NCBI GenBank assembly: GCA_020846005.1
Contig: JADLEQ010000081.1
Span: 72,783-136,782 of the forward strand
Reading direction: 5' to 3'
Origin: Polyangiaceae bacterium
GTDB taxonomy: Bacteria > Myxococcota_A > Polyangia > Polyangiales > Polyangiaceae
Length of the DNA stretch: 64,000 bases
In this document: positions 25,263-46,376 of the stretch, piece after piece
Position numbering within the stretch: the first letter of the stretch is position 1
Layout: every line of letters starts with the position of its first letter
Translations under genes and position numbers: made by a program
The notes under the pieces: generated by a model
Seen by the model: the letters and a program-made list of their open reading frames with translations, nothing else
Databases searched by the model: none
Told to the model about the DNA's origin: nothing

Positions 25263-26933
25263 ATGCGCTCGTTGCTGGCTGTCGTCGCGGTCGTTGCCTG
25301 CTCGGGGGCGTCGCCGTCCGCGCCGGCGCCCGGCGCGGGTTCGGCGGGGGCGGACGCCCAAGCGGTGCCCGCGCCCGGGGCCGCGGCTCCCGCTCCGTCG
25401 CGCGGCTTGGCGCCGGAGGACCCCTGCGAGGCCGAACGCGAGCGCCTGCGCGCGGCGCCGGCCCTCCCCGGCGCGCCCTCGCTCGACGCGCGGCGGCACG
25501 AGGTCCTGGCGCGCGCGAAGGCCGCTCCGGTCGTGTTCGTGCGCGTCCCCGAGATCGATCCTTCTGCGCCGCGCGAGGCCGTCGTGCATCGAGCCCAGCT
25601 CGAGGCGAGCGCGGCGCCGGCCTGGCACCTGTCTCGGGTCTGGAGGCTCCTGGCGAACCGGGAGGAGCTGGCGCGCGCCGTGTTCCTCCGCGAGGGCTAC
25701 CTCTACTTCGAGGCGCCGGCCGTGGCCGCGGCCGTGGTCGAACACCTCGAGCTCCATCACCTGTTCCGCGAGCGCGAGCTGGTGCTCGAGCGCGGCGGCG
25801 ATCGCCACCGGCTGCTCCGCGAGCGTGGCGGCTACCACCACGCCGACGGTCCGCTCGCGGGCCAGCGCGCGAAGCTCGTCCTCTTCGACCGCGCGTGGGC
25901 GGCGGGCCGGGAGCCAGGGCCGCCGCTGCATCGTGACCTGACCGCCGTGCGTGAGGCCGCGGGCGCTGACGAGATCGGGGTCGAGCGGCTCACCGAGGCC
26001 GGCGCGCTGGTGACACTCCGTGTCGGTGATCTGGCCGTTCCCGCGGCGCTCCGCGCGCGCGGAGCGGCGTTGGAGCTCGCCTGCGAGTCGGTGGCGCCCG
26101 GCGATCGGGCGAGGGTCGCCGCGGCCCGCGAGGAGACGGCCCGGCGACTCCGCGCCGTCCGGCGGCTCCGCGCCGCGATCGATCTGATGGTCGACGAGGC
26201 GCTGCCCTTCGACGAGCCGCGCACCGAGGAGGGCCAACAGGACGGCAACCTGCGCCCGGCCTGGCTGTGGGCGTACCGGCACGGGTGGGACTCCTATACG
26301 TTCAACGACGACGGCTATCCGGTGTTCGACGCCCAAGGCAGGCCGCTCGTGCCGCAGGTCTGCGTGGACTTCGTCACCGACGCGCTCGAGCGCGCGAGCG
26401 GCACCTGGTACCTCCCCCGCGGTCGGGCGCGCGAGCGAACGGTCGGGGGGCTCGACCTGGATCGCCTCGGGATCGACAACCGTCGGAGCGTCGAGCGACT
26501 CGTCGAGTTCGCGTGGCGCCGCCCCGATCTGGTCGACGTGGTGGACCTCGCCCCTGAGGAGCGCGTCCCGTTCTTCCAGAGGGCGGAGTTCTACGGCCAC
26601 CTGTTCGAGCATCGCGCGCGGTACCGAGAAGGCGACGTGATCACGATCCACGGGCTCCGGAGCGACGGCCAGCTCCACTACCACTCGTTCTTCGTCGTCG
26701 GCTCCGACCCGGTCTCCGGCATGCCGACGACGCTCGCGAGCAACGCCGGCCGTCCGCGGCTGCGGACGTGGGAGCAGGAGATGCGCGCCGCGCCCCGCCG
26801 CTCGATCCGTTCGCGACTTCGCTTCCGTCTGGGGTGGCTGGAGCCGCCGACCGTGGACCCGATCGAGCCGGCCGCCGTTGCGGACCCTGATCCGGAGATC
26901 ACGGTCGACGCGAGCTCATCGAGGAGCATCTGA
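25263..26933 (+). CDS. Lipoprotein with possible NlpC/P60- or CHAP-like cysteine hydrolase domain
   Basis: 556 residues from ATG. A short signal with lipobox (VVAVVACSG, Cys 13) precedes an Ala/Pro-rich linker. Residues ~90-290 are of unknown fold. The C-terminal 230 residues contain a Cys in PQVCVDFVTDALERASGTWY, where the Cys starts a helix, and later a His strand QLHYHSFFVVGSDPVSGMP, then TLASNAGRPRLRTW. This Cys-helix / His-strand order is that of NlpC/P60 and CHAP papain-fold peptidases that cut peptidoglycan or other amides. This is inference from motif order only. It is expressed alone, divergent from the kinase gene. A weak hairpin follows. Confidence 0.65.
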   Translation: MRSLLAVVAVVACSGASPSAPAPGAGSAGADAQAVPAPGAAAPAPSRGLAPEDPCEAERERLRAAPALPGAPSLDARRHEVLARAKAAPVVFVRVPEIDPSAPREAVVHRAQLEASAAPAWHLSRVWRLLANREELARAVFLREGYLYFEAPAVAAAVVEHLELHHLFRERELVLERGGDRHRLLRERGGYHHADGPLAGQRAKLVLFDRAWAAGREPGPPLHRDLTAVREAAGADEIGVERLTEAGALVTLRVGDLAVPAALRARGAALELACESVAPGDRARVAAAREETARRLRAVRRLRAAIDLMVDEALPFDEPRTEEGQQDGNLRPAWLWAYRHGWDSYTFNDDGYPVFDAQGRPLVPQVCVDFVTDALERASGTWYLPRGRARERTVGGLDLDRLGIDNRRSVERLVEFAWRRPDLVDVVDLAPEERVPFFQRAEFYGHLFEHRARYREGDVITIHGLRSDGQLHYHSFFVVGSDPVSGMPTTLASNAGRPRLRTWEQEMRAAPRRSIRSRLRFRLGWLEPPTVDPIEPAAVADPDPEITVDASSSRSI

Positions 26934-30251: not shown

Positions 30252-31568
30252 ATGATCGCGAAAGAACGTGTGAAGTTCCCCGTCCGGGTCGGGCTCCTCG
30301 GCTGCGGCACCGTAGGCGGCGGCGTGCTGCGCTTGCTCGAGGAGAACCGCGAGTACCTCGCCTCACGTGTCGGCGCGCCGCTCGAGGTGACGCGGGTCCT
30401 GGTACGGGACGACGAGAAGGACCGCGTCCCGGAGTGTCGCCGCGAGTGGCTGACGACCCGCGCCGACGACGTGCTCAGCGCGGATCTCGACGTGCTCATC
30501 GAGGTGATGGGCGGCGAGGAGCCCGCCCGATCGCTCGTCGCGCGCGCGCTGGACGCCGGCAAGAGCGTGGTGACGGCGAACAAGCTGCTCGTCGCGCGGC
30601 ACGGGACGGAGCTCGTGGCGCGCGCGGTCGCCAACGGCGCCGATCTGGCGTTCGAGGCCTCCGTCGGTGGGGGCATCCCGATCCTCCGGACGTTGCGCGA
30701 GGCGTTCACCAGCGACTGGGTGGTCAGCGTGCACGGCATCTTGAACGGCACGTGCAATTACATCCTCACCCGGATGCGCGACGAGGGGCTGGCGTTCGAC
30801 GACGCGCTCGCCGAGGCCCAGCGGCTCGGGTACGCCGAGGCCGAGCCCTCCCTCGACGTGGACGGCCACGACGCGGCACAGAAGCTCGTCGTCACGAGCA
30901 TGCTCGCGTTCGGCGCGAGCGTCGACGTCGCGTCCGTGCCGGTCGAGGGCATCCGGAGCATCGATCGCCTCGACTTCGAGTTCGCGGCGCGCTTCGGCTA
31001 CACGATCAAGCACCTCGCGATCGGGCGGGATCTCGGGGATCGCATCGTCCTCCGAGTCCACCCGGCGCTGGTGCCGAAGACCAGCGTGCTCGCCAACATC
31101 GACGGCGTGCTGAACGGCGTCAAGGTGGTCGGGCGCGCGCTCGGGCCCTGTCTGCTCGTGGGTCGCGGCGCCGGCGACATGCCGACGGCCGTGAGCGTCG
31201 TGGCGGACGTGGTCGACGTGGCACGATCGAAGATTGGAGGCGAGCCCGGGCTCGCTACGCGCGGCATCCAGGTGAAGGAGCGCCCGCTGGTCCCGCTCGC
31301 CGAGGTGCACGCCCGGTACTACCTCCGCTTCGACGTGGAGGACCGGCCGGGTGTGGTGGGCGCGATCGCCACCGAGCTCGGGCGCGCGGGGGTGAGCATC
31401 GAGCAGATGGTGCAGGACGGCCGCGCCAAGGACTCGGACTCGGCGGTGCCCGTGCTCCTCGTGACCCACGAGACGGACGAGCGCGCCCTCCGTGGCGCGC
31501 TCGTCGCCATCGGCGCGCAGGGCTTCCTGCGAGGCCAGGCTCGGCTGCTCCGCATCGAGGCGGTGTGA
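30252..31568 (+). CDS. hom: Homoserine dehydrogenase
   Basis: 438 residues from ATG. Domains in order: NAD(P) Rossmann fold (VGLLGCGTVGGGVLRLL), catalytic domain with VVTANKLLVA, FEASVGGGIPI, GTCNYILTRM and LDVDGHDAAQKL (Asp and Lys of the active site), then a C-terminal ACT domain (YYLRFDVEDRPGVVGAIATEL). It reduces aspartate-semialdehyde to homoserine, the branch to threonine and methionine; the ACT domain usually gives threonine feedback. It is normal length. The gene runs into murI with a 4-bp overlap (GTGA), an uncommon pairing of amino acid and wall synthesis. Upstream gap 91 bp. Confidence 0.97.
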   Translation: MIAKERVKFPVRVGLLGCGTVGGGVLRLLEENREYLASRVGAPLEVTRVLVRDDEKDRVPECRREWLTTRADDVLSADLDVLIEVMGGEEPARSLVARALDAGKSVVTANKLLVARHGTELVARAVANGADLAFEASVGGGIPILRTLREAFTSDWVVSVHGILNGTCNYILTRMRDEGLAFDDALAEAQRLGYAEAEPSLDVDGHDAAQKLVVTSMLAFGASVDVASVPVEGIRSIDRLDFEFAARFGYTIKHLAIGRDLGDRIVLRVHPALVPKTSVLANIDGVLNGVKVVGRALGPCLLVGRGAGDMPTAVSVVADVVDVARSKIGGEPGLATRGIQVKERPLVPLAEVHARYYLRFDVEDRPGVVGAIATELGRAGVSIEQMVQDGRAKDSDSAVPVLLVTHETDERALRGALVAIGAQGFLRGQARLLRIEAV

Positions 31569-32428
31569 GCGGGGCCCCGTCGATCGGCGCCGCGGCCGCG
31601 CCGATCGGCGTCTTCGACTCCGGCCTCGGCGGGCTCACGGTCGTGCGGGCGCTGCGCGGCGCGGTGCCGGACGAGAGCCTCCTCTACCTCGGCGACACCG
31701 CTCGCGTCCCGTACGGCACGCGCTCCGCGGAGACGGTCGTCCGTTACGCGCGCAGCTGCTCGCGTGAGCTCGTCGCGAGGGGAGTGAAGGCGCTCGTCAT
31801 CGCCTGCAACACCGTGAGCGCGGTGGCCGTCGAGGTGCTCGCGGCCGAGCTCGATCTGCCCGTCCTCGGCGTCATCGAGCCGGGGGCCGAGGCGGCCGTG
31901 GCCGCGGCCGAGGCGGTGGGCGCCGCGGCCGGCGCGCTGCCGAAGATCGGCGTGCTCGGCACCCAGGGGACGGTGCTCTCCGGCGCGTACCCGAGGGCCG
32001 TCGCGCGGCTCTCCTCGCGGCTCGAGGTCGTCGCGCAAGCCGCTCCGCTCCTCGTCCCGCTGGTGGAGGAGGGCTGGGTCGAGGGCGAGGTGCCCGAGCG
32101 CGTGGTGGAGCGCTACGTCGATCCGCTCGTCGCCGAGGGGGCGGGGGTGCTCGTGCTCGGGTGCACCCACTACCCGCTCCTCGCGCCGGTCATCGCGCGC
32201 GTCGCCGAGCGCCTCGCCGGCCGCCCGATCCCGGTGGTGGACGGCGCGGCGGCCACGGCCCGGCGGGTCGCAGAGTGGATCCGGACCGAGCGACTCGAGC
32301 CCGCCCCGGCGGGCGCTGCGGGGACGCTCGAGCTCCTCGTGACGGATCTCCCGGCCTCGTTCGCTCGCCTGGCCGAGTCGTTCCTCGGGCGCGGCGAGGC
32401 GCCGGTCGCTCAGATCGACCTGCGCTGA
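31565..32428 (+). CDS. murI: Glutamate racemase
   Basis: 287 residues from a GTG overlapping the hom stop. The two active-site Cys are in IACNTVSAVA and GCTHYPLL; the start motif IGVFDSGLGGLTV and YLGDTARVPYG are typical. It makes D-glutamate for peptidoglycan in the cytoplasm. The length is normal. Translational coupling to hom is likely. Confidence 0.96.
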   Translation: MSGAPSIGAAAAPIGVFDSGLGGLTVVRALRGAVPDESLLYLGDTARVPYGTRSAETVVRYARSCSRELVARGVKALVIACNTVSAVAVEVLAAELDLPVLGVIEPGAEAAVAAAEAVGAAAGALPKIGVLGTQGTVLSGAYPRAVARLSSRLEVVAQAAPLLVPLVEEGWVEGEVPERVVERYVDPLVAEGAGVLVLGCTHYPLLAPVIARVAERLAGRPIPVVDGAAATARRVAEWIRTERLEPAPAGAAGTLELLVTDLPASFARLAESFLGRGEAPVAQIDLR

Positions 32429-32607
32429 GCGGCGCGCGCGACGCCGTCGCGCGCCGCCGCGCTCTCGTGACGCTGTTCGCGTCCAGTCGGCGCGGAAGCC
32501 GACGGCGCGCGGGGCGGTTAGCAAACTGACGGCGAATGGCACCGGATGCAGCTTCAACCCGGACGATCTGCGCGAGAATTGCGCCGTCCGCCGCGGTTTA
32601 CGCCCTG

Positions 32608-32624
32608 CGGCACACACGTTGCTT
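32608..32624 (+). promoter_or_regulatory. Sigma54 (-24/-12) promoter candidate for the metzincin gene
   Basis: CGGCAC-ACACG-TTGCTT matches TGGCAC-N5-TTGCW with one mismatch (C for the first T) and the correct GG/GC spacing of 12. The start site would fall near 32634, leaving a leader of about 50 nt with the SD GAAGGAG before the ATG at 32685. The 256-bp gap from murI is long for this window. An enhancer-binding protein site was not identified. Confidence 0.55.
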
Positions 32625-32684
32625 CCGGGCCGCTGGCCGTAGTGCACGCCCCGCCGGGTGCGCCGGTCGCCGAAGGAGCCCCGC

Positions 32685-35600
32685 ATGAAGACCAGGTACC
32701 GTCTCGCTCTCGGAGTGGCCGCCAGCCTCGCGCTCGGTGCGGGGTGCGCGGAGGAGCGCGAGCCCATCAGCCAGGTGCAGCCGAACGCCCTGGACAAGTC
32801 GTTCTTCGTCGGGGCCGATCTCGCCGACCCCGCCGACGACCACGAGTTCTACACCGCGGCGACGGTGATCGACGTGCCGTACGGTGAGGACAACGCGGGC
32901 CTCTTCCCGGGCGGGACGGGCGGGCTCCGCCGCGTGAAGTTCGAGATTCTGGAGGACGTGATCAACGTCCGCATGACCTACGAGGAGATCGAAGGCGTCG
33001 ACGGCCACGGCAACGCGACCACCAACAACGGCCGCGTGATCGCCTCGTACCCCATCACCAGCCACTTCGACATCAAGCGGGCGTACAACTCCTCGACGGG
33101 TGAGGAGATCAACGTCATCACGGAGAACTCGAGCGATCGCCCGTGGTACCAGCGACGCTTCATGCGGGTCGACTGGTCGACGAACCTGGTCACCTCGTCG
33201 ATGCACTGGGATCCGATCGCCCAGGAGAGCGCCTTCGGCTCGTCGCTCGACGTGGAGCCCCTGGCCTACAACATCAGCGACCCAAACCACGCCGACGCCC
33301 CGCTCTTCGATCTCGAGACGCACTACTTCGACGTGACGAACCGGCTCTACGTGAAGCCCCGCCAGGTGAGTCTGTTCGGCCAGACGGTGAACGCCTGCCT
33401 CTACCGAGGCGGGTTCGTCCTGGGCGGCACGGCCCCCTGGGGCAACTGCGAGAACTCGGAGATCACCGTCCGCTACTCGTACAAGCGGATCGCGCGACCG
33501 GGCGAGGCCAGCCACACCGACTACGAGCCGAAGGAGTGGGACGGCACGCGGCAGAACGCGTTCGGCGTCTTCACCGCGGATCGGCTCGGGTGGGACGACC
33601 GCTACGGCGTCGTCGACTCGAAGTGGCATCGCCTCGCGCAGCGCTACAACGTCTGGCAGCGGAGCCACACCGAGCAGCGGTGCTCGGCGGACGTGGACGC
33701 GGACACCAACGGCACCTCGGATCAGTGCGAGACCTCGGGCGCCGGCTCCCAGTGCGACACGCTGAGCGGGCTGTGCACACTCCCGTACGCGCTCCGCGAG
33801 GTGCGACCTGTGGCGTGGCACTACTCCGTCGGGCCCGCCGGGGACGCCGTCATCCGGCGCTGGACGCGCAAGGCCACCGAGGAGTGGGACGTCGTCCTGC
33901 GGACCGCGGTGCAGGCGGCGCGGCTGGTCGAGTGCAAGCGCACCCAGGGGCGATCGCTCGAGGGCTCGCCGTGGCGCAACTTCTACGATCCGGCGAGCGG
34001 GGCGAATTGCGCCGGCGCCTTCCCGATCCAGCAGTCCGAAGGGGTCGATCTGGCCCAGGCGCGCGAGCTCCTCGAGTGCCAGTACCGCGCAGGGTATGGC
34101 GCGAAGGAGTGCGAGGATCTGAAGGCGGCGCGGTACGACGTCGTGCCCCCGGTGGCGGTCGCCAACCTGCGGTCGATGGTCGTCTTCTGTGAGAGCCCCG
34201 TCCCGGTCGGAGCGGATCCCGCTTGCGGGAAGCCCGGCACGGTTGCGCGCCCGGGGGACATCCGCTTCCACCACCTCGCGGTGTGGCCGACGCGCCACAC
34301 GAGCTCCCCGTGGGGGTATGGCCCGACGGGCGCCGACCCGCTGACCGGCGAGGTGATCGCGGCGTGGATCAACGTGTACGACGCCGTCACGGAGAGCGCC
34401 GGCCAGGGCTTCGTCGATCAGCTCAGGTGGGTGAACGGCGAGATCGCGACCTCCGACATCACGAGCGGGGAGTACTCCCGCGGTTGGGTGAGCGCGGACG
34501 ACGCCCCCGAGGAGCGGTCGGCGAAGCTCAGCGCCGCACAGCGCCAGGTCGCCGGTGGCTTCCTGCTCACCCCCGAGGAGGTGCAGAAGCGCACCTCCGC
34601 CGTGCTCGGCGCCGACGTGAAGCCGCCGTCGCCGTTCCTCCCGCAGCTCGGCGATCCGGCGAAGCTGGTGCGCGATCTGCGGCGCGACCTCGATCATCGC
34701 CGCGTGCCGCCTGAGCTCGCGGTCAACAACCGCGCGATCTTCGATCGCCGTATCGAGCTCGCCAAGGCGTCGGGCGTCGAGGCGGAGCTCATCGGCCCGA
34801 TGTGGCTCCAGGCCGCGGGCCTCTCGCCGGACGAGCCGATCACCGAAGAAGCGCTCGAGCGCGCGTCACCGCTCCGTGGGCTAAACCACCAGGTGCTCCG
34901 CCGCGCCGAGCAGAAGCTCCACCGCACGTTCGCCGAGCGCGGCCAGTGTCTGGTCGCCGCACCGGAGCCGACCGGCCTGCCCGCGTTGGCCAAGGTGATG
35001 GCGCGGAAGTTCCCCGCGGCGCCGGACGAGGCCCCGGATCAGACGCGCGCGCGCGTCGACCGGATGTACGACTACCTGCGCGGTCGGATGCACTACTCGG
35101 TCATCCTGCATGAGATGGGGCACACCGTCGGCTTCCGTCACAACTTCGTGAGCTCGTACGACAAGTTCAACTTCCGCACGCAGTACTGGCAGCTCCGCAC
35201 GAACAACGGCCAGGTGACGCAGCCGTGCACGGGCCCGTCGGACGGTGAGAGCTGCGTCGGTCCGCGCTACTACGACCCGCTCACGCAGGACGAGATGGAC
35301 CAGTCGATCTGGACCTGGCAGCACTCGACCGTCATGGACTACCCCGGCGAGCTCACGCAGGACATGCTGGGGTTGAGCGTGTACGACTACGCTGCGGCGA
35401 GGGCGTTCTACGCCGACGTGGTCGACGTGATCGACGATGTCGACGCGAACGGCGAGCGGATCATCGCCACCACGGATCTCAACGGCAACGGGCAGGTCGA
35501 TGGCGAGGACGCGACCGGGAGCTTCGCGGGTGACAGCATCGCGGAGAACCTCGTCGACAACATGGGCGGGCTCATCGGTCAGCAGCTCTGGAGCGGCGGC

Positions 35601-37442
35601 AACGACGCCATCCACTACTCGGAGTGGAACAACGTCTTCGGGTTCCTGCGCAACTGCCGCCCGCACACGCCCACCCCGCCGCTCGACTGGGACCCCGAGG
35701 TGGACGGCGAGTTCGATCCGGTCTTCGACGGCCAGGTCGTGCTCGGCACCGTCTGCGATCGGATGCACGTCGACTACATGCGCTACGACGACCTCATCCC
35801 CGACCAGGTGAGCTTCGACTACTCCGTCGACCCCCGAGCGAACACCTCGCGCAGGGCCCGCGACCTGACGGGCCGCCCGCGCGTCCCGTACGGCTTCGAG
35901 TCGGACGAGTACGCCGACAGCTGGTACCCCTCGACGTACCGGCACGACAACGGCGCCGATCTCTACGAGGAGCTCGTCTTCCACTCGAACCTGTACGAGA
36001 ACCGGCACGTCTTCGACAACTACCGGAACGGCCGGTCCACGTTCACGATCGCCGGCGCATACAACCGCGCGATGAGCCGGTACCACCAGAAGATCGCCGA
36101 TCTCACCCAGGGCGTCGCGTACCTCTTCGGCTACTACTTCGGTGAGTATGCGCGCACGGCGGGCGTCGAACGCAGCTACTTCCTCAACGTGCTGGCCGGG
36201 GTCGGCAGTCCGCAGAGCGGCTTCCGCGACATGCTCGTGGGGGCCGGGCTCGGCTTCGACCACTTCATGCGCGTGCTCACCCGGCCGCACCCGGGCCGGC
36301 ACCGCCGGGAGGATCGGAACGGCGATTTCGTGGCCGACTCGCTCCTGCCCGAGGCGGACGAGATCGGTGGCGGCGCGGGGCTGTCCGTCAGCTCGACGCT
36401 GCTCACGATGCCCAACGGCCCGAGCTTCAACGAGAGCGGAGAGCTCATCTACGGCGCCAAGCCCGTCAACAACAACTTCGAGGGTGGGCACGGGTACTTC
36501 GGCGTCGACTACCTGAACCAGGCCGGCTCCTATTACGAGAAGGCGCTCGCCTTCGATCTGCTGCTGCAGGCCGGGTACAACGTGCTCACCTTCTCGCGGA
36601 ACGACGGCGTCGACGCCCGGTTCCACCACAACAACTTCGTCGACATGTGGCCGGACTCGATGCGGCGTCTCGTCGGCGCGATGCTGACGGGCGATACCGA
36701 TCTCTTCGCGCCGCGCGTCACCACCGTCGGGCCGGGCGCGCCCGAGGTCACGCCGATGGAGGAGGGCTCTACGAGCTGCACCTCGAACAGCTGCTTCCCG
36801 AAGCGCCCGCTCGGTTGGGTCTCGTACGTGCCCGCGAGCGGCCCCGAGGTGTGCTGGCCGCGCGACGGCGTCATCGTGTGCAACGACGGCGTCGGCAACC
36901 CGATCGGCAACGAGAACCTGGCGAGCCTCCCCGTGGATCCGCAGCTCGGGTTCGAGGTGCAGAAGTTCATCGCGTTCTGGTCGTACGTCTACATGCCCGA
37001 GGCCTGGGAGCTCGACTGGGTCGACATGATGCGGATCTACGTCGTGGGCCCGGACCAGAGCCCCGACTACCTGCCGGGGCAGTTCGTCGAGTGGCGCGAT
37101 CCCGAGTCCGGGCTGCGCTACCTCGCCCGGCGCTTCGGCGACGAGACGCTCCTCGGCAAGACGTACGACAAGGGCATCGCCGCGAAGATGATCCAGTGGG
37201 CGAACACCCTCACGGCGGCGGCCTACCAGGTCGAGTCCGTCGATCCGGTGACGGGTCGGGTGACGCCGAGGGTGGACGCCGCCGGGAAGCCGCTCCTCCA
37301 GGGGTCGATGCCGACGTGCAACGAGTCCAAGCAGTGCGCGTCCGTGCGCGCCTACCGGGGCCTGCTCGACTACATGCGAGACACCGCCGCGCGCCTGGGC
37401 TTCCCGGAGCCGGCGCTGCAAATCTACGGCTGGGGCGAGTGA
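32685..37442 (+). CDS. Giant metzincin-type zinc metalloprotease lipoprotein
   Basis: 1585 residues from ATG with GAAGGAG 8 bp upstream. The signal peptide (LALGVAASLALGAGCAEE) has a good lipobox at Cys 21. The zinc site is HEMGHTVGFRHN (first His at about 809), the HExxHxxGxxH of metzincins, followed by a Met-turn candidate in STVMDYPG. The motif and great size resemble zinc-dependent metalloproteases of the DUF5117/DUF4953 type; assignment to a named family is inferred. Long stretches before and after are Tyr/Asp/Asn-rich and have Ca-binding-like pieces (DVDADTNGTSDQCE, DLNGNGQVDGEDATG, resembling dockerin/EF-hand loops). It is probably surface- or outer-membrane-anchored, acting on proteins of prey or matrix (inference). 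Confidence 0.85.
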   Translation: MKTRYRLALGVAASLALGAGCAEEREPISQVQPNALDKSFFVGADLADPADDHEFYTAATVIDVPYGEDNAGLFPGGTGGLRRVKFEILEDVINVRMTYEEIEGVDGHGNATTNNGRVIASYPITSHFDIKRAYNSSTGEEINVITENSSDRPWYQRRFMRVDWSTNLVTSSMHWDPIAQESAFGSSLDVEPLAYNISDPNHADAPLFDLETHYFDVTNRLYVKPRQVSLFGQTVNACLYRGGFVLGGTAPWGNCENSEITVRYSYKRIARPGEASHTDYEPKEWDGTRQNAFGVFTADRLGWDDRYGVVDSKWHRLAQRYNVWQRSHTEQRCSADVDADTNGTSDQCETSGAGSQCDTLSGLCTLPYALREVRPVAWHYSVGPAGDAVIRRWTRKATEEWDVVLRTAVQAARLVECKRTQGRSLEGSPWRNFYDPASGANCAGAFPIQQSEGVDLAQARELLECQYRAGYGAKECEDLKAARYDVVPPVAVANLRSMVVFCESPVPVGADPACGKPGTVARPGDIRFHHLAVWPTRHTSSPWGYGPTGADPLTGEVIAAWINVYDAVTESAGQGFVDQLRWVNGEIATSDITSGEYSRGWVSADDAPEERSAKLSAAQRQVAGGFLLTPEEVQKRTSAVLGADVKPPSPFLPQLGDPAKLVRDLRRDLDHRRVPPELAVNNRAIFDRRIELAKASGVEAELIGPMWLQAAGLSPDEPITEEALERASPLRGLNHQVLRRAEQKLHRTFAERGQCLVAAPEPTGLPALAKVMARKFPAAPDEAPDQTRARVDRMYDYLRGRMHYSVILHEMGHTVGFRHNFVSSYDKFNFRTQYWQLRTNNGQVTQPCTGPSDGESCVGPRYYDPLTQDEMDQSIWTWQHSTVMDYPGELTQDMLGLSVYDYAAARAFYADVVDVIDDVDANGERIIATTDLNGNGQVDGEDATGSFAGDSIAENLVDNMGGLIGQQLWSGGNDAIHYSEWNNVFGFLRNCRPHTPTPPLDWDPEVDGEFDPVFDGQVVLGTVCDRMHVDYMRYDDLIPDQVSFDYSVDPRANTSRRARDLTGRPRVPYGFESDEYADSWYPSTYRHDNGADLYEELVFHSNLYENRHVFDNYRNGRSTFTIAGAYNRAMSRYHQKIADLTQGVAYLFGYYFGEYARTAGVERSYFLNVLAGVGSPQSGFRDMLVGAGLGFDHFMRVLTRPHPGRHRREDRNGDFVADSLLPEADEIGGGAGLSVSSTLLTMPNGPSFNESGELIYGAKPVNNNFEGGHGYFGVDYLNQAGSYYEKALAFDLLLQAGYNVLTFSRNDGVDARFHHNNFVDMWPDSMRRLVGAMLTGDTDLFAPRVTTVGPGAPEVTPMEEGSTSCTSNSCFPKRPLGWVSYVPASGPEVCWPRDGVIVCNDGVGNPIGNENLASLPVDPQLGFEVQKFIAFWSYVYMPEAWELDWVDMMRIYVVGPDQSPDYLPGQFVEWRDPESGLRYLARRFGDETLLGKTYDKGIAAKMIQWANTLTAAAYQVESVDPVTGRVTPRVDAAGKPLLQGSMPTCNESKQCASVRAYRGLLDYMRDTAARLGFPEPALQIYGWGE

Positions 37443-37505
37443 GCGTCGGCGACTCGCGGGCGCGCCGGCCGGGCGCGCTCGCGGGCGGGACGAGACCCGC
37501 GCGGT

Positions 37506-37529
37506 GCGCGCGCTGGCGTCAGCGCGCGC
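37506..37529 (-). terminator. Perfect 10-bp hairpin at the pyrB stop
   Basis: GCGCGCGCTG-GCGT-CAGCGCGCGC is an uninterrupted 10-bp stem with a 4-base loop, overlapping the pyrB stop codon (37519-37521). It lies between the convergent metzincin and pyrB genes and could end both transcripts. There is no T-run. Confidence 0.5.
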
Positions 37530-38463
37530 CGGGTGTCTCGGCCCCCGCGGCGCACAGGTGGAGCACGGCCATCCGGACCGCGACGCCCGCCTCGACCTGA
37601 TCGAGGATGGCGCTCCGCGGGCCGTCCGCGAGCTCGTCGGAGAGCTCGACGCCCCGGTTGATGGGGCCCGGGTGCAGGACGAGCGCGTCCGCCTTGGCGA
37701 GGGCGAGGCGGCTCGAGTTGAGCCCGAACTCGCGCGCGTACTCGCGGAGGGAGGGGAGGGCGGCGCCGCTCAGGCGCTCCTGCTGGATCCGGAGCATCAT
37801 CACCACGTCGGCCCCCGCGAGCGCTGGCTCGAGGCGATCGAAGACCTCGGCGCCGAGCGCGTCCGCGCGATGAGGGAGGAGGGTCCTCGGCCCGGCCAGG
37901 CGCACCCGGGCCCCGAGCAGGGGCAACAGCAGCGCGTTCGAGCGCGCGACTCGGCTGTGCGCGATGTCGCCACAGATCGCGACGGTGAGCCCCGCCAGCG
38001 TCCCCTTGGCGGCGCGGAGGGTGAAGGCGTCGAGCAGCGCCTGGGTCGGGTGCTCGTGCATGCCGTCGCCGGCGTTGACGACGGCCGCCCGCGCGCGCCC
38101 GCGCGTGGCGACGTGGTGGGCGGCGCCGGACGCCGGGTGTCGCAGGACGATGACATCCGCGTGCATGGCGTCGAGGTTCGCGACGGTGTCCGAGAGCGTC
38201 TCACCCTTCGTGGTGCTCGAGCTCGAGGCGCTCACGTTGACCACGTCGGCGCCGAGCCGCTTGCCGGCGAGCTCGAAGGAGGTGCGCGTGCGGGTCGACG
38301 CCTCGTAGAAGAGGTTGACGATCGTCTTGCCTTGCAGCGAAGGCGCCTTGCGGATCGGGCGCCGCGAGACCTCGAAGAACTCGCGCGCGAGGTCCAGGAT
38401 GCGCTCCGCGGCCGCGGCGTCGAGGTCTCGGATGCTCGTCAGGTGGGGGAGGCGCGCGCTCAT
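37519..38463 (-). CDS. pyrB: Aspartate carbamoyltransferase, catalytic chain
   Basis: 314 residues from ATG. Carbamoyl-phosphate site [13 protein letters not shown], then the second-site [12 protein letters not shown], and the aspartate-binding C-terminal half with the conserved [11 protein letters not shown]. It condenses carbamoyl phosphate and aspartate, the committed step of pyrimidine synthesis. The length is normal. The usual myxobacterial neighbours (pyrC, pyrR) are not seen, and no regulatory chain is present. The promoter must lie in the 133 bp to the rhomboid-like gene. No pyrR-type leader is evident. Confidence 0.96.
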
Positions 38464-44233: not shown

Positions 44234-44249
44234 TGGCACGCCGGCTGCA
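44234..44249 (+). promoter_or_regulatory. Sigma54-like motif just before the outer-membrane protein start
   Basis: TGGCACG-CCGG-CTGCA matches the -24/-12 consensus with one mismatch (C for T at -13). The predicted start site would be within a base or two of the ATG at 44261, giving a leaderless message; consistent with that, no Shine-Dalgarno sequence precedes the ATG. Chance is possible. Confidence 0.3.
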
Positions 44250-44260
44250 CGCGGCGGCGC

Positions 44261-45148
44261 ATGATGCGTCCCGTTTCGTCTCTCTTGCTCCTCTCCGGTC
44301 TCCTGGTCGCCCCCGCGGCGCTCGCCGAGGGCGCTGGCGCGCCGAAGCCTCCGCCGTACTCCTTGCCGTGGCAGCTCCGGCCGATCGCCCCCGCGAACGT
44401 CGTGCGCCTCGATCTCCCGGTCGCCTCGCACGAAGGCGGTAGCACCTATGCTCCCGTGCTGACGGGGGGATACGCGGTTACCCCGGAGTTCGGCGCCCTC
44501 GCGCGGGTCGGGTACGTCAGCACGGCCCCCGACGAGGGCGCTGGCGCCTCCGGCTTCACCAACCCCCTGATCGGCGCGCTCTACTCGCCGAAGCTCGGCG
44601 GCGAGCTGAAGCTCGCGTTGTTCGCTGGCGTCGCGCTGCCGCTCGGCAGCGGCGGCGGCAACGACCCCGACCCGAAGTCGCGGATCGGCGCGGGCGTCCT
44701 CGCGCGCTCCGCGCTCGACAACGCGCTCTTCGCCGTCAACGACCTCGTCCCGCTCGCCGGCGTGGACGTGGCCTGGGTGAGCGGCGGCTTCACCCTGCAG
44801 GCCGAGGCGACCGTCCTCGAACTCCTCAGGATGCGTGGTGAGGACGTCCAGAAGGACAAGACCAAGACGAACTCGACGGCTGGCCTGCACGCCGGGTACT
44901 TCTTCATCCCGCAGCTGTCGATCGGCCTCGAGCTCCGCCACCAGCGCTGGCTGTCGACACCGTCGTTCCTGAAGGGTGCGCCGTCGGAGAACCGCGACAA
45001 CACGACGGCCGCCGCGGGGCTGCGCGGCCACGTCGCGGCCGGGGACGTGAAGCTCAAGCCCGGCCTCGCGTACGTGATGCCGCTCGACGACCCGATGAAG
45101 GAGGGCAAGTACGGGATCGTCTTCGCCGACGTCCCCGTGATCTTCTGA
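44261..45148 (+). CDS. Predicted outer-membrane beta-barrel-like protein
   Basis: 295 residues from ATG 44261 (or 44264). A clear signal peptide (SSLLLLSGLLVAPAALA, cleavage before EGAG). The mature chain has alternating amphipathic beta stretches with Gly/Tyr/Phe (GGYAVTPEFGALARVGYVS, AGYFFIPQLSIGLELRHQRW, YGIVFADVPVIF), ending in the aromatic C-terminal Phe required by the BAM machinery. Barrel and porin-like role are inferred. No homolog is named. A sigma54-like motif precedes it. Confidence 0.75.
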   Translation: MMRPVSSLLLLSGLLVAPAALAEGAGAPKPPPYSLPWQLRPIAPANVVRLDLPVASHEGGSTYAPVLTGGYAVTPEFGALARVGYVSTAPDEGAGASGFTNPLIGALYSPKLGGELKLALFAGVALPLGSGGGNDPDPKSRIGAGVLARSALDNALFAVNDLVPLAGVDVAWVSGGFTLQAEATVLELLRMRGEDVQKDKTKTNSTAGLHAGYFFIPQLSIGLELRHQRWLSTPSFLKGAPSENRDNTTAAAGLRGHVAAGDVKLKPGLAYVMPLDDPMKEGKYGIVFADVPVIF

Positions 45149-45167: not shown

Positions 45168-46376
45168 GTGGCGGTCCGACACGAGGCGGGGCAGGCTCCG
45201 CGCCCCGTGTCGCCGCCCGCCCGCTCCGTTCCCTGGCTCGCGAAGGGCTTTCGGCCCTTCTTCCCCCTCGCGGCCGCCTACGCCGTCGCCGCGATCGGCG
45301 CGTGGCTGCACGCGGTGGCGGCGCGAGCGTCCGTCGCGCCGTACTTCCCTCCACCGTACTGGCACGCGCACGAGATGGTGCACGGCTTCTCCGCGGCGGT
45401 GCTCGCGGGGTTCCTGCTCACGGCCGCCTCCAACTGGACGGCGCGCGAGACGCTGGTCGGAGCCCGGCTCGGCGCGCTCGCCGCCGCATGGGTCGCCGGG
45501 CGGGCGGTCGTCGCGGTCGGGCACGCGCTCCCGGCGCCGCTCGTCGCGGCGGTCGACCTGGCGTTCCTCCCGGGGCTCCTGGCCGGCGTCGGGCGCCCGA
45601 TCGTGGGCAGCCGGAGCCGCCGCAACTACGGCCTCCTCGCCCTGCTCGTCGGGCTCGCCCTGGCGAACGGCGCCATGCATCTCGGCGCGCTCGGCCTCCT
45701 GCCCGGCGGGCTGCAGCGGGGCGCCGCCGCGGGCGTCGGGCTGGTCGCGCTGGTCGTCGTCGTCGTGTCCGCCCGGGTCGTCCCGATGTTCACGCGCAAC
45801 GCGACCGGGGCGCCCGTCCGCGTCACGCCGCGGGCGGACTGGCTGGCGTTCGGGGGGCTGGCCGCGCTCGTGCTCGCGGACGCCGCCGGCGCTGGGCCGG
45901 AGCTCGTCGGGCCGGTGGCGGCGCTCACGGCGCTCGCGCTCGTCCTGCGGTCGTGGGGGTGGGGCGCGTGGGCGTCGCGCTCCGTCCCGCTGCTGTGGGT
46001 GCTCCACGTCGGGCACGCGTTCCTCCCGCTGGCGCTCGGGCTGCGCGCGCTCGCTGCGGCGGGGCTCGCGCCGTCGAGCGCGTGGCTGCACGCGGTCGGC
46101 GCCGGCGCGATCGGCACGCTCGCGCTCGGGATGATGACCCGCGTCGGGCTCGGCCACACCGGCCGGCCGCTGGTCGCGGGGCGCGCGATGACCGTCGCGT
46201 TCGCGCTCGTGATCGCCGGTGCCGGGGGCCGCGTGCTGGCTGCGTTCGCGCCCGCGGCGCAGCAGGCGACCGCCGTCGTCGTCGCGGGCGCGCTGTGGAG
46301 CGCGGCGTTCGCCGTCTACCTCGTCGCGTGCGGTCCCGCGCTCGCGCGCCCGCGCGTCGACGGCCGCCCGGGCTGA
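45168..46376 (+). CDS. nnrS: NnrS family membrane protein
   Basis: 402 residues from GTG with about 12 hydrophobic helices. NnrS signatures are all present: KGFRPFFPLA near the start, WHAHEMVHGFSAAVLAGF, RVVPMFTRNATG, and IGTLALGMMTRVGLGHTGRPL. NnrS is a haem- and copper-containing inner-membrane protein that protects against nitric oxide or nitrosative stress and is common with denitrification genes. It follows the barrel gene by 19 bp and converges on a radical SAM gene, which is itself near a cytochrome c gene. No nitrite or NO reductase is in the window. Confidence 0.93.
   Translation: MAVRHEAGQAPRPVSPPARSVPWLAKGFRPFFPLAAAYAVAAIGAWLHAVAARASVAPYFPPPYWHAHEMVHGFSAAVLAGFLLTAASNWTARETLVGARLGALAAAWVAGRAVVAVGHALPAPLVAAVDLAFLPGLLAGVGRPIVGSRSRRNYGLLALLVGLALANGAMHLGALGLLPGGLQRGAAAGVGLVALVVVVVSARVVPMFTRNATGAPVRVTPRADWLAFGGLAALVLADAAGAGPELVGPVAALTALALVLRSWGWGAWASRSVPLLWVLHVGHAFLPLALGLRALAAAGLAPSSAWLHAVGAGAIGTLALGMMTRVGLGHTGRPLVAGRAMTVAFALVIAGAGGRVLAAFAPAAQQATAVVVAGALWSAAFAVYLVACGPALARPRVDGRPG

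Follow-up and report, generated by a model that had tools for sequence, protein, structure and literature searches.

What drives expression of the giant lipoprotein gene at 32685–37442, and what would its product do? The window, the whole 64-kb stretch of DNA that was analysed, carries on its plus strand a sigma54-type −24/−12 element, CGGCAC-ACACG-TTGCT (32608–32623), in which the GG occupies 32609–32610 and the GC occupies 32621–32622. The element reads CGGCACACACGTTGCT, which corresponds to GG-N10-GC with exact −24/−12 spacing in a GGCAC-N5-TTGC context. The gap from its end to the ATG at 32685 is 61 nt, and the sequence thus bears out the original prediction of an exactly spaced sigma54 match 61 bp before the gene start. 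The predicted length of 1585 residues is likewise confirmed by the open reading frame at 32685–37442 on the plus strand, which encodes a metzincin-like lipoprotein of 1585 aa.

The sigma54-type element and its genomic setting

From the geometry of sigma54 promoters, transcription is predicted to start at 32634 (plus strand), ~12 nt past the −12 element, giving a predicted leader of ~50 nt. A ribosome-binding site, AAGGAG (32673–32678, plus strand), is located 6 nt ahead of the ATG. A homoserine dehydrogenase gene (30252–31568) lies upstream on the same strand, followed by an Asp/Glu-racemase gene (31565–32428) that is directly upstream of and co-directional with the lipoprotein gene, and an aspartate/ornithine carbamoyltransferase gene (37519–38463) lies downstream in convergent orientation. 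With 256 nt of free upstream DNA and a convergent gene downstream, the lipoprotein gene is most likely transcribed alone, so that 32608–37442 most likely constitutes a single-gene unit. No sigma70-type promoter was found in 32300–37700, which argues against the alternative that GC-rich DNA produced the element by chance, with transcription of the gene left to a housekeeping or ECF-type promoter.

We searched the 5.7-Mb genome with a strict sigma54 pattern, GGCACNNNNNTTGCW, using the same pattern read backwards as a control. Genes were defined with a home-made, codon-usage-based caller written for this analysis, in which gene starts were chosen by our own procedure and by which ~91% of the genome is coding. 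The strict pattern yielded 21 matches compared with seven for the reversed control, a threefold excess. With this gene caller, 20/21 strict sites were intergenic versus 0/7 control sites, all seven of which fall within genes, and 15 of the 21 were both intergenic and located no more than 207 nt from the start of a co-directional gene. The excess and the intergenic placement of the strict sites both count against a chance match. A loose scan of the 64-kb window, allowing up to three mismatches, displayed no enrichment (46 found versus 61.9 expected); this result favours a chance match, and only strict sites were consequently treated as informative and used.

The element resembles the sigma54 promoters of the Nla28 regulon of Myxococcus xanthus, for which the published consensus is TGGCACG-N4-TTGC(T/A) (PMC9765219). 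The two sets of sites differ in their placement, however, in that 9 of 12 sites in the Nla28 regulon are situated inside genes (PMC9765219), whereas the strict sites of this genome are nearly all intergenic.

Promoters across the lipoprotein family

Of 108 genomes from the bacterium's own taxonomic family (Polyangiaceae), at least 94 encode relatives of the lipoprotein, as do at least 176 of 377 genomes sampled over the phylum (Myxococcota). Among the matches listed, we surveyed the 130 nt before the start of each homolog whose start could be placed at a signal peptide. A total of 89 promoters were taken, with L141, L160 and L171 omitted because no start was found. Removal of L098 (wrong start) and 17 near-duplicates left 71 promoters, and removal of six from named MAGs, taken as lying outside the taxonomic family, left 65. 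Sites were scored with our own weights on the sigma54 consensus (maximum 24; threshold ≥20), which agrees with that given in PMC9765219.

A correctly spaced site on the coding strand scored ≥20 in 17 of the 71 promoters, compared with none on the opposite strand and 0–5 at other spacings. The exact motif GG-N8-TTGC, to which the following counts are confined, was present in 21/65 family promoters in the forward direction, in 1/65 on the opposite strand and in 0/65 when reversed, and was absent from 44/65. Similarly, GGC-N7-TTGC occurred in 12/65, while spacers of N5, N6, N8, N9 and N10 gave 0–2. Chance may account for some of the lower-scoring sites. A further set of 40 homologs, reduced to 35 by the omission of five without a start and to 27 non-redundant promoters by the removal of eight near-duplicates, included two that scored ≥20, namely L186, from outside the taxonomic family, and L173, from a genus mate inside it.

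Scores of ≥20 were reached by 17/65 family promoters but by only 7/145 other genes preceded by free DNA (Fisher 2e-5). The 145 control genes consisted of 53 from the own genome, mostly from around activator genes, and 92 from relatives' loci. These controls bear on whether sigma54 use reflects a general preference of these genomes at exported or envelope genes and is nothing special to the protease family. Sigma54 is broadly tied to the bacterial exterior, lipoproteins included (PMC3162934), and the own-genome controls also score (6/53), though largely from activator-gene loci. In the relatives' loci, by contrast, 1/92 controls reached the threshold, a comparison with the family in which the controls are unmatched for lipoprotein genes. 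We regard a general preference as a serious contender, with a probability somewhat short of even. A sigma54-driven surface lipoprotein would fit a known theme, given the link of sigma54 to the bacterial exterior (PMC3162934). Among the papers searched, none was found to describe this lipoprotein family under sigma54 control.

When the presence of a site was mapped as a label on the family tree, it required 15 changes versus a shuffled average of 23.2, and none of 500 shuffles was as low. Site presence is therefore clustered on the tree yet labile, and near-copies add to the clustering. As judged from these sequences, sigma54 control appears to recur among the lipoproteins of this taxonomic family but to be labile, a pattern suggesting that some of the paralogs are expressed on demand. 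The turnover of promoter type is shown here inside one gene family, and a widespread, unnamed family of myxobacterial surface proteins is linked to sigma54 control with strong strand and spacing controls. This link offers a concrete handle on when the proteins of the family are made and what for.

Individual relatives reveal both retention and loss of the element. The relative in G038 (L092), from another genus, has ~51–59% identity to the window protein, depending on the segment, and is a positional ortholog in which three upstream neighbours, the genes for an M1 peptidase, homoserine dehydrogenase and racemase, as well as the downstream carbamoyltransferase gene, are kept; its promoter carries TGGCCCGGAAGTTGCG at 69 nt before the start. 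The paralog in the own genome (L101) carries GGGAACGCAACTTGCT at 40 nt before the start; its branch in the tree is very long, so that its position is unsure. The only relative in the genus mate, L173, carries AAGCACGAATCTTGCT at 86 nt before the start, and no ortholog as close as that of G038 was found in the genus mate. L093–L095 from G021–G023, the three closest relatives in the tree, lack a site within 130 nt of the start, and so do three more members of their clade, L096, L097 and L099; over these genomes, the site is absent from the relatives of the lipoprotein in G021–G023, G092, G093 and G016. The original prediction named loss of the GG/GC pair in close relatives as a result that would speak against it. 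The outcome is mixed, neither a clean pass nor a clean failure, with the pair kept in the positional ortholog of G038 and absent in G021–G023.

All 12 relatives tested, G021–G023 among them, possess rpoN. With both strands summed, strict and control sites numbered 77 and 12 in G021, 76 and 13 in G022, and 64 and 18 in G023. These three genomes (genus g16) combine an excess of strict sites with nearest metzincin relatives that have none, and they would make a clean case in which to study promoter-type switching. In four of the 12 relatives, G093, G085, G053 and G038, the strict pattern did not exceed the reversed control, which makes the single-genome evidence weak in each of them.

The chance-match scenario gains some ground from these last genomes and from the lack of a site in the three nearest relatives. 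It is opposed by the positional ortholog, the own paralog and the many family members in which an exactly spaced site occurs solely on the correct strand, and we consider it very unlikely. The genome-wide, strand, spacing and positional-ortholog controls strongly support the original assignment, and the designation of 32608–32623 as a sigma54 promoter is well supported computationally.

Motifs and likely nature of the encoded protein

The gene begins with a signal peptide and lipobox (32685–32747, plus strand), in which Cys21 (codon 32745–32747) is the predicted lipid acceptor and is followed by Ala22. Both residues are kept in 22/22 aligned members, which have 29–59% identity to the window protein. 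The lipobox, MKTRYRLALGVAASLALGAGC-A, conforms to that of a lipoprotein, with an atypical Gly at residue −3. In addition, the window protein has 24 cysteines, and 15 of them, Cys21 included, recur in all 22 members; the many conserved cysteines other than Cys21 suggest disulfides outside the cytoplasm. At the level of motifs, the protein thus has the lipoprotein character that had been claimed for it, and its export and lipidation are supported by the sequence.

The zinc site, HEMGHTVGFRH (residues 809–819; 35109–35141, plus strand), and the Met-turn, STVMDY (residues 881–886; 35325–35342, plus strand), are features that the protein has in common with matrixins and reprolysins (M10/M12 metzincins). 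His809, Glu810, His813 and His819 are invariant in 22/22 members, as is Met884 of the Met-turn, while in the homologs L100, L108 and L110 the Gly of HExxHxxGxxH is replaced by Ala (HEMGHSFALRHNF). The best Pfam match of the window protein is PF16313 (DUF4953, Met-zincin), aligned over the zinc helix HExxHxxGxRHNF, and DUF4953 was matched in all 22 members at E ≤ 0.01. The window protein itself, however, fell short of the 24.2-bit cut-off with a score of 22.5 bits and covered 26 of the 316 model positions, and for these reasons we name it metzincin-like and not a DUF4953 member. Weak matches to Reprolysin_5 and Matrixin were obtained for 14/22 and 6/22 members, respectively, and no similarity to matrixins or reprolysins was detectable beyond the zinc helix. 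The predicted metzincin therefore stands at the level of HExxHxxGxxH and the Met-turn, and the protein appears metzincin-like by motif only.

The sigma54 promoter could be real and the product nevertheless no working protease: it might serve at the surface as an adhesin or scaffold and have retained its metzincin-like zinc site for structural reasons. Only ~26 residues resemble known metzincins, and outside this zinc-helix stretch nothing was matched in Pfam or NCBIfam, no NCBIfam model matching the window protein at all. A profile search of the PDB returned karilysin at E=1 over profile positions 808–833, corresponding to the zinc helix alone, which also leans towards a non-protease. Karilysin is a chain of 166 residues, unlike the window protein, which is ~10 times longer, lipidated by motif and rich in conserved cysteines. 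A PDB sequence search with the single window protein gave chance-like matches only, and two AlphaFold2 models built from eight sequences had mean pLDDT values of 30.5 and 43.1, a low confidence at which they are unusable for the fold. What tells against an adhesin or scaffold is that neither the ligands of the zinc nor the catalytic Glu nor the Met of the Met-turn varies across the 22 members despite their divergence, given that a purely structural zinc site would presumably have no need of the Glu. We therefore judge a non-catalytic role to be unlikely, and catalysis by the window protein is inferred from these invariant residues.

Three loops of the calcium-binding type, D-x-[DN]-x-[DNS]-G, begin at residues 338, 918 and 931. 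The first, DADTNG (residues 338–343; 33696–33713, plus strand), is flanked by the conserved Cys333 and Cys348, and a loop of this type is found at residues 341–373 in 20/25 full-length homologs. The other two, DVDANG and DLNGNGQVDGED (residues 918–942; 35436–35510, plus strand), are located in an insert that none of the other 21 members of the alignment has. Three or more such loops occurred in 0.25% of 2000 shuffled copies of the window protein. None of the EF-hand models in Pfam matched the window protein at E ≤ 1. Of the EF-hand-like repeats originally proposed, the three calcium-type loops stand, while two of them are confined to the protein's own insert and no EF-hand model recognises any; the label 'EF-hand repeats' thus appears overstated.

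Candidate activators and a proposed mode of expression

On the promoter and protein sequences together, it is likely that a promoter for the sigma54-RNA polymerase drives a giant exported lipoprotein belonging to a widespread family of metzincin-like zinc proteases in the Myxococcota. RpoN-polymerase would sit in a closed complex on 32608–32623 until a distant activator, bound elsewhere, opens this complex using ATP, and transcription would then begin near 32634. The product would be exported, lipidated at Cys21 and, held by disulfides, would stay at the outer membrane or beyond, where it may cleave extracellular proteins in a zinc-dependent manner. Expression of the lipoprotein is probably signal-gated under such an arrangement, with starvation, prey contact and nitrogen as candidate signals. 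More speculatively, the giant metzincin lipoproteins of this myxobacterial family may form a dedicated sigma54 regulon, in which paralogs repeatedly gain and lose −24/−12 promoters and one or a few distant activators switch surface proteases on upon prey contact or nutrient limitation. We put this forward tentatively, as the less probable outcome; if true, it would amount to an evolving, signal-gated programme of surface digestion, of which the papers searched gave no description.

The genome contains one copy of rpoN and 29 matches to the sigma54-activator domain PF00158, 24 of which are strong, and no sigma54 activator gene was found on the contig of the window. The enhancer-binding protein genes that had been suggested as a check are accordingly present in the genome, with none near the lipoprotein gene. 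The exact Nla28 half-site was not found near the lipoprotein gene, the nearest copies being at 26655 and 41819, and the inverted and direct repeats upstream of the gene comprised many weak GC-rich pairs, none of them convincing as an activator site. Among the 17 sigma54-positive family promoters, the most widely shared upstream 8-mer had a count of five, and shuffles reached seven. Inspection of the surroundings of homologs revealed one divergent EBP-like gene, in G053, and none in the nine other regions inspected.

Among the homolog loci inspected, that of G053 (L222, 18352–19899, G053:C23; also L107, 11352–13655) is the only one with an activator gene within ~2 kb. The activator-like gene there is divergent and ~1.7 kb upstream from the homolog, and the homolog with this neighbour carries AGGCACGGCGGTTGCC 50 nt before its own start.

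Several other genes of the organism are preceded by sites of the same type. Genes downstream of the strict sites (L071–L091) include those encoding FlgD, a ClpB-like ATPase, a sigma-70-type factor, a protein with a CBS domain and a DUF6600 protein, and they provide a first sketch of the sigma54 regulon of this organism. Flagellar genes are classical sigma54 targets. Within the window, a second sigma54-like site, CGGCACGATGTCTGCA, is present at 585–600, 66 nt before a universal-stress-protein gene (667–1326). Finally, TGGCACGCCGGCTGCA lies at 44234–44249, 35 nt before a gene of 287 aa without a database match (44285–45148), which is followed by an NnrS gene (45207–46376); nitric-oxide genes are often controlled by a sigma54 activator.
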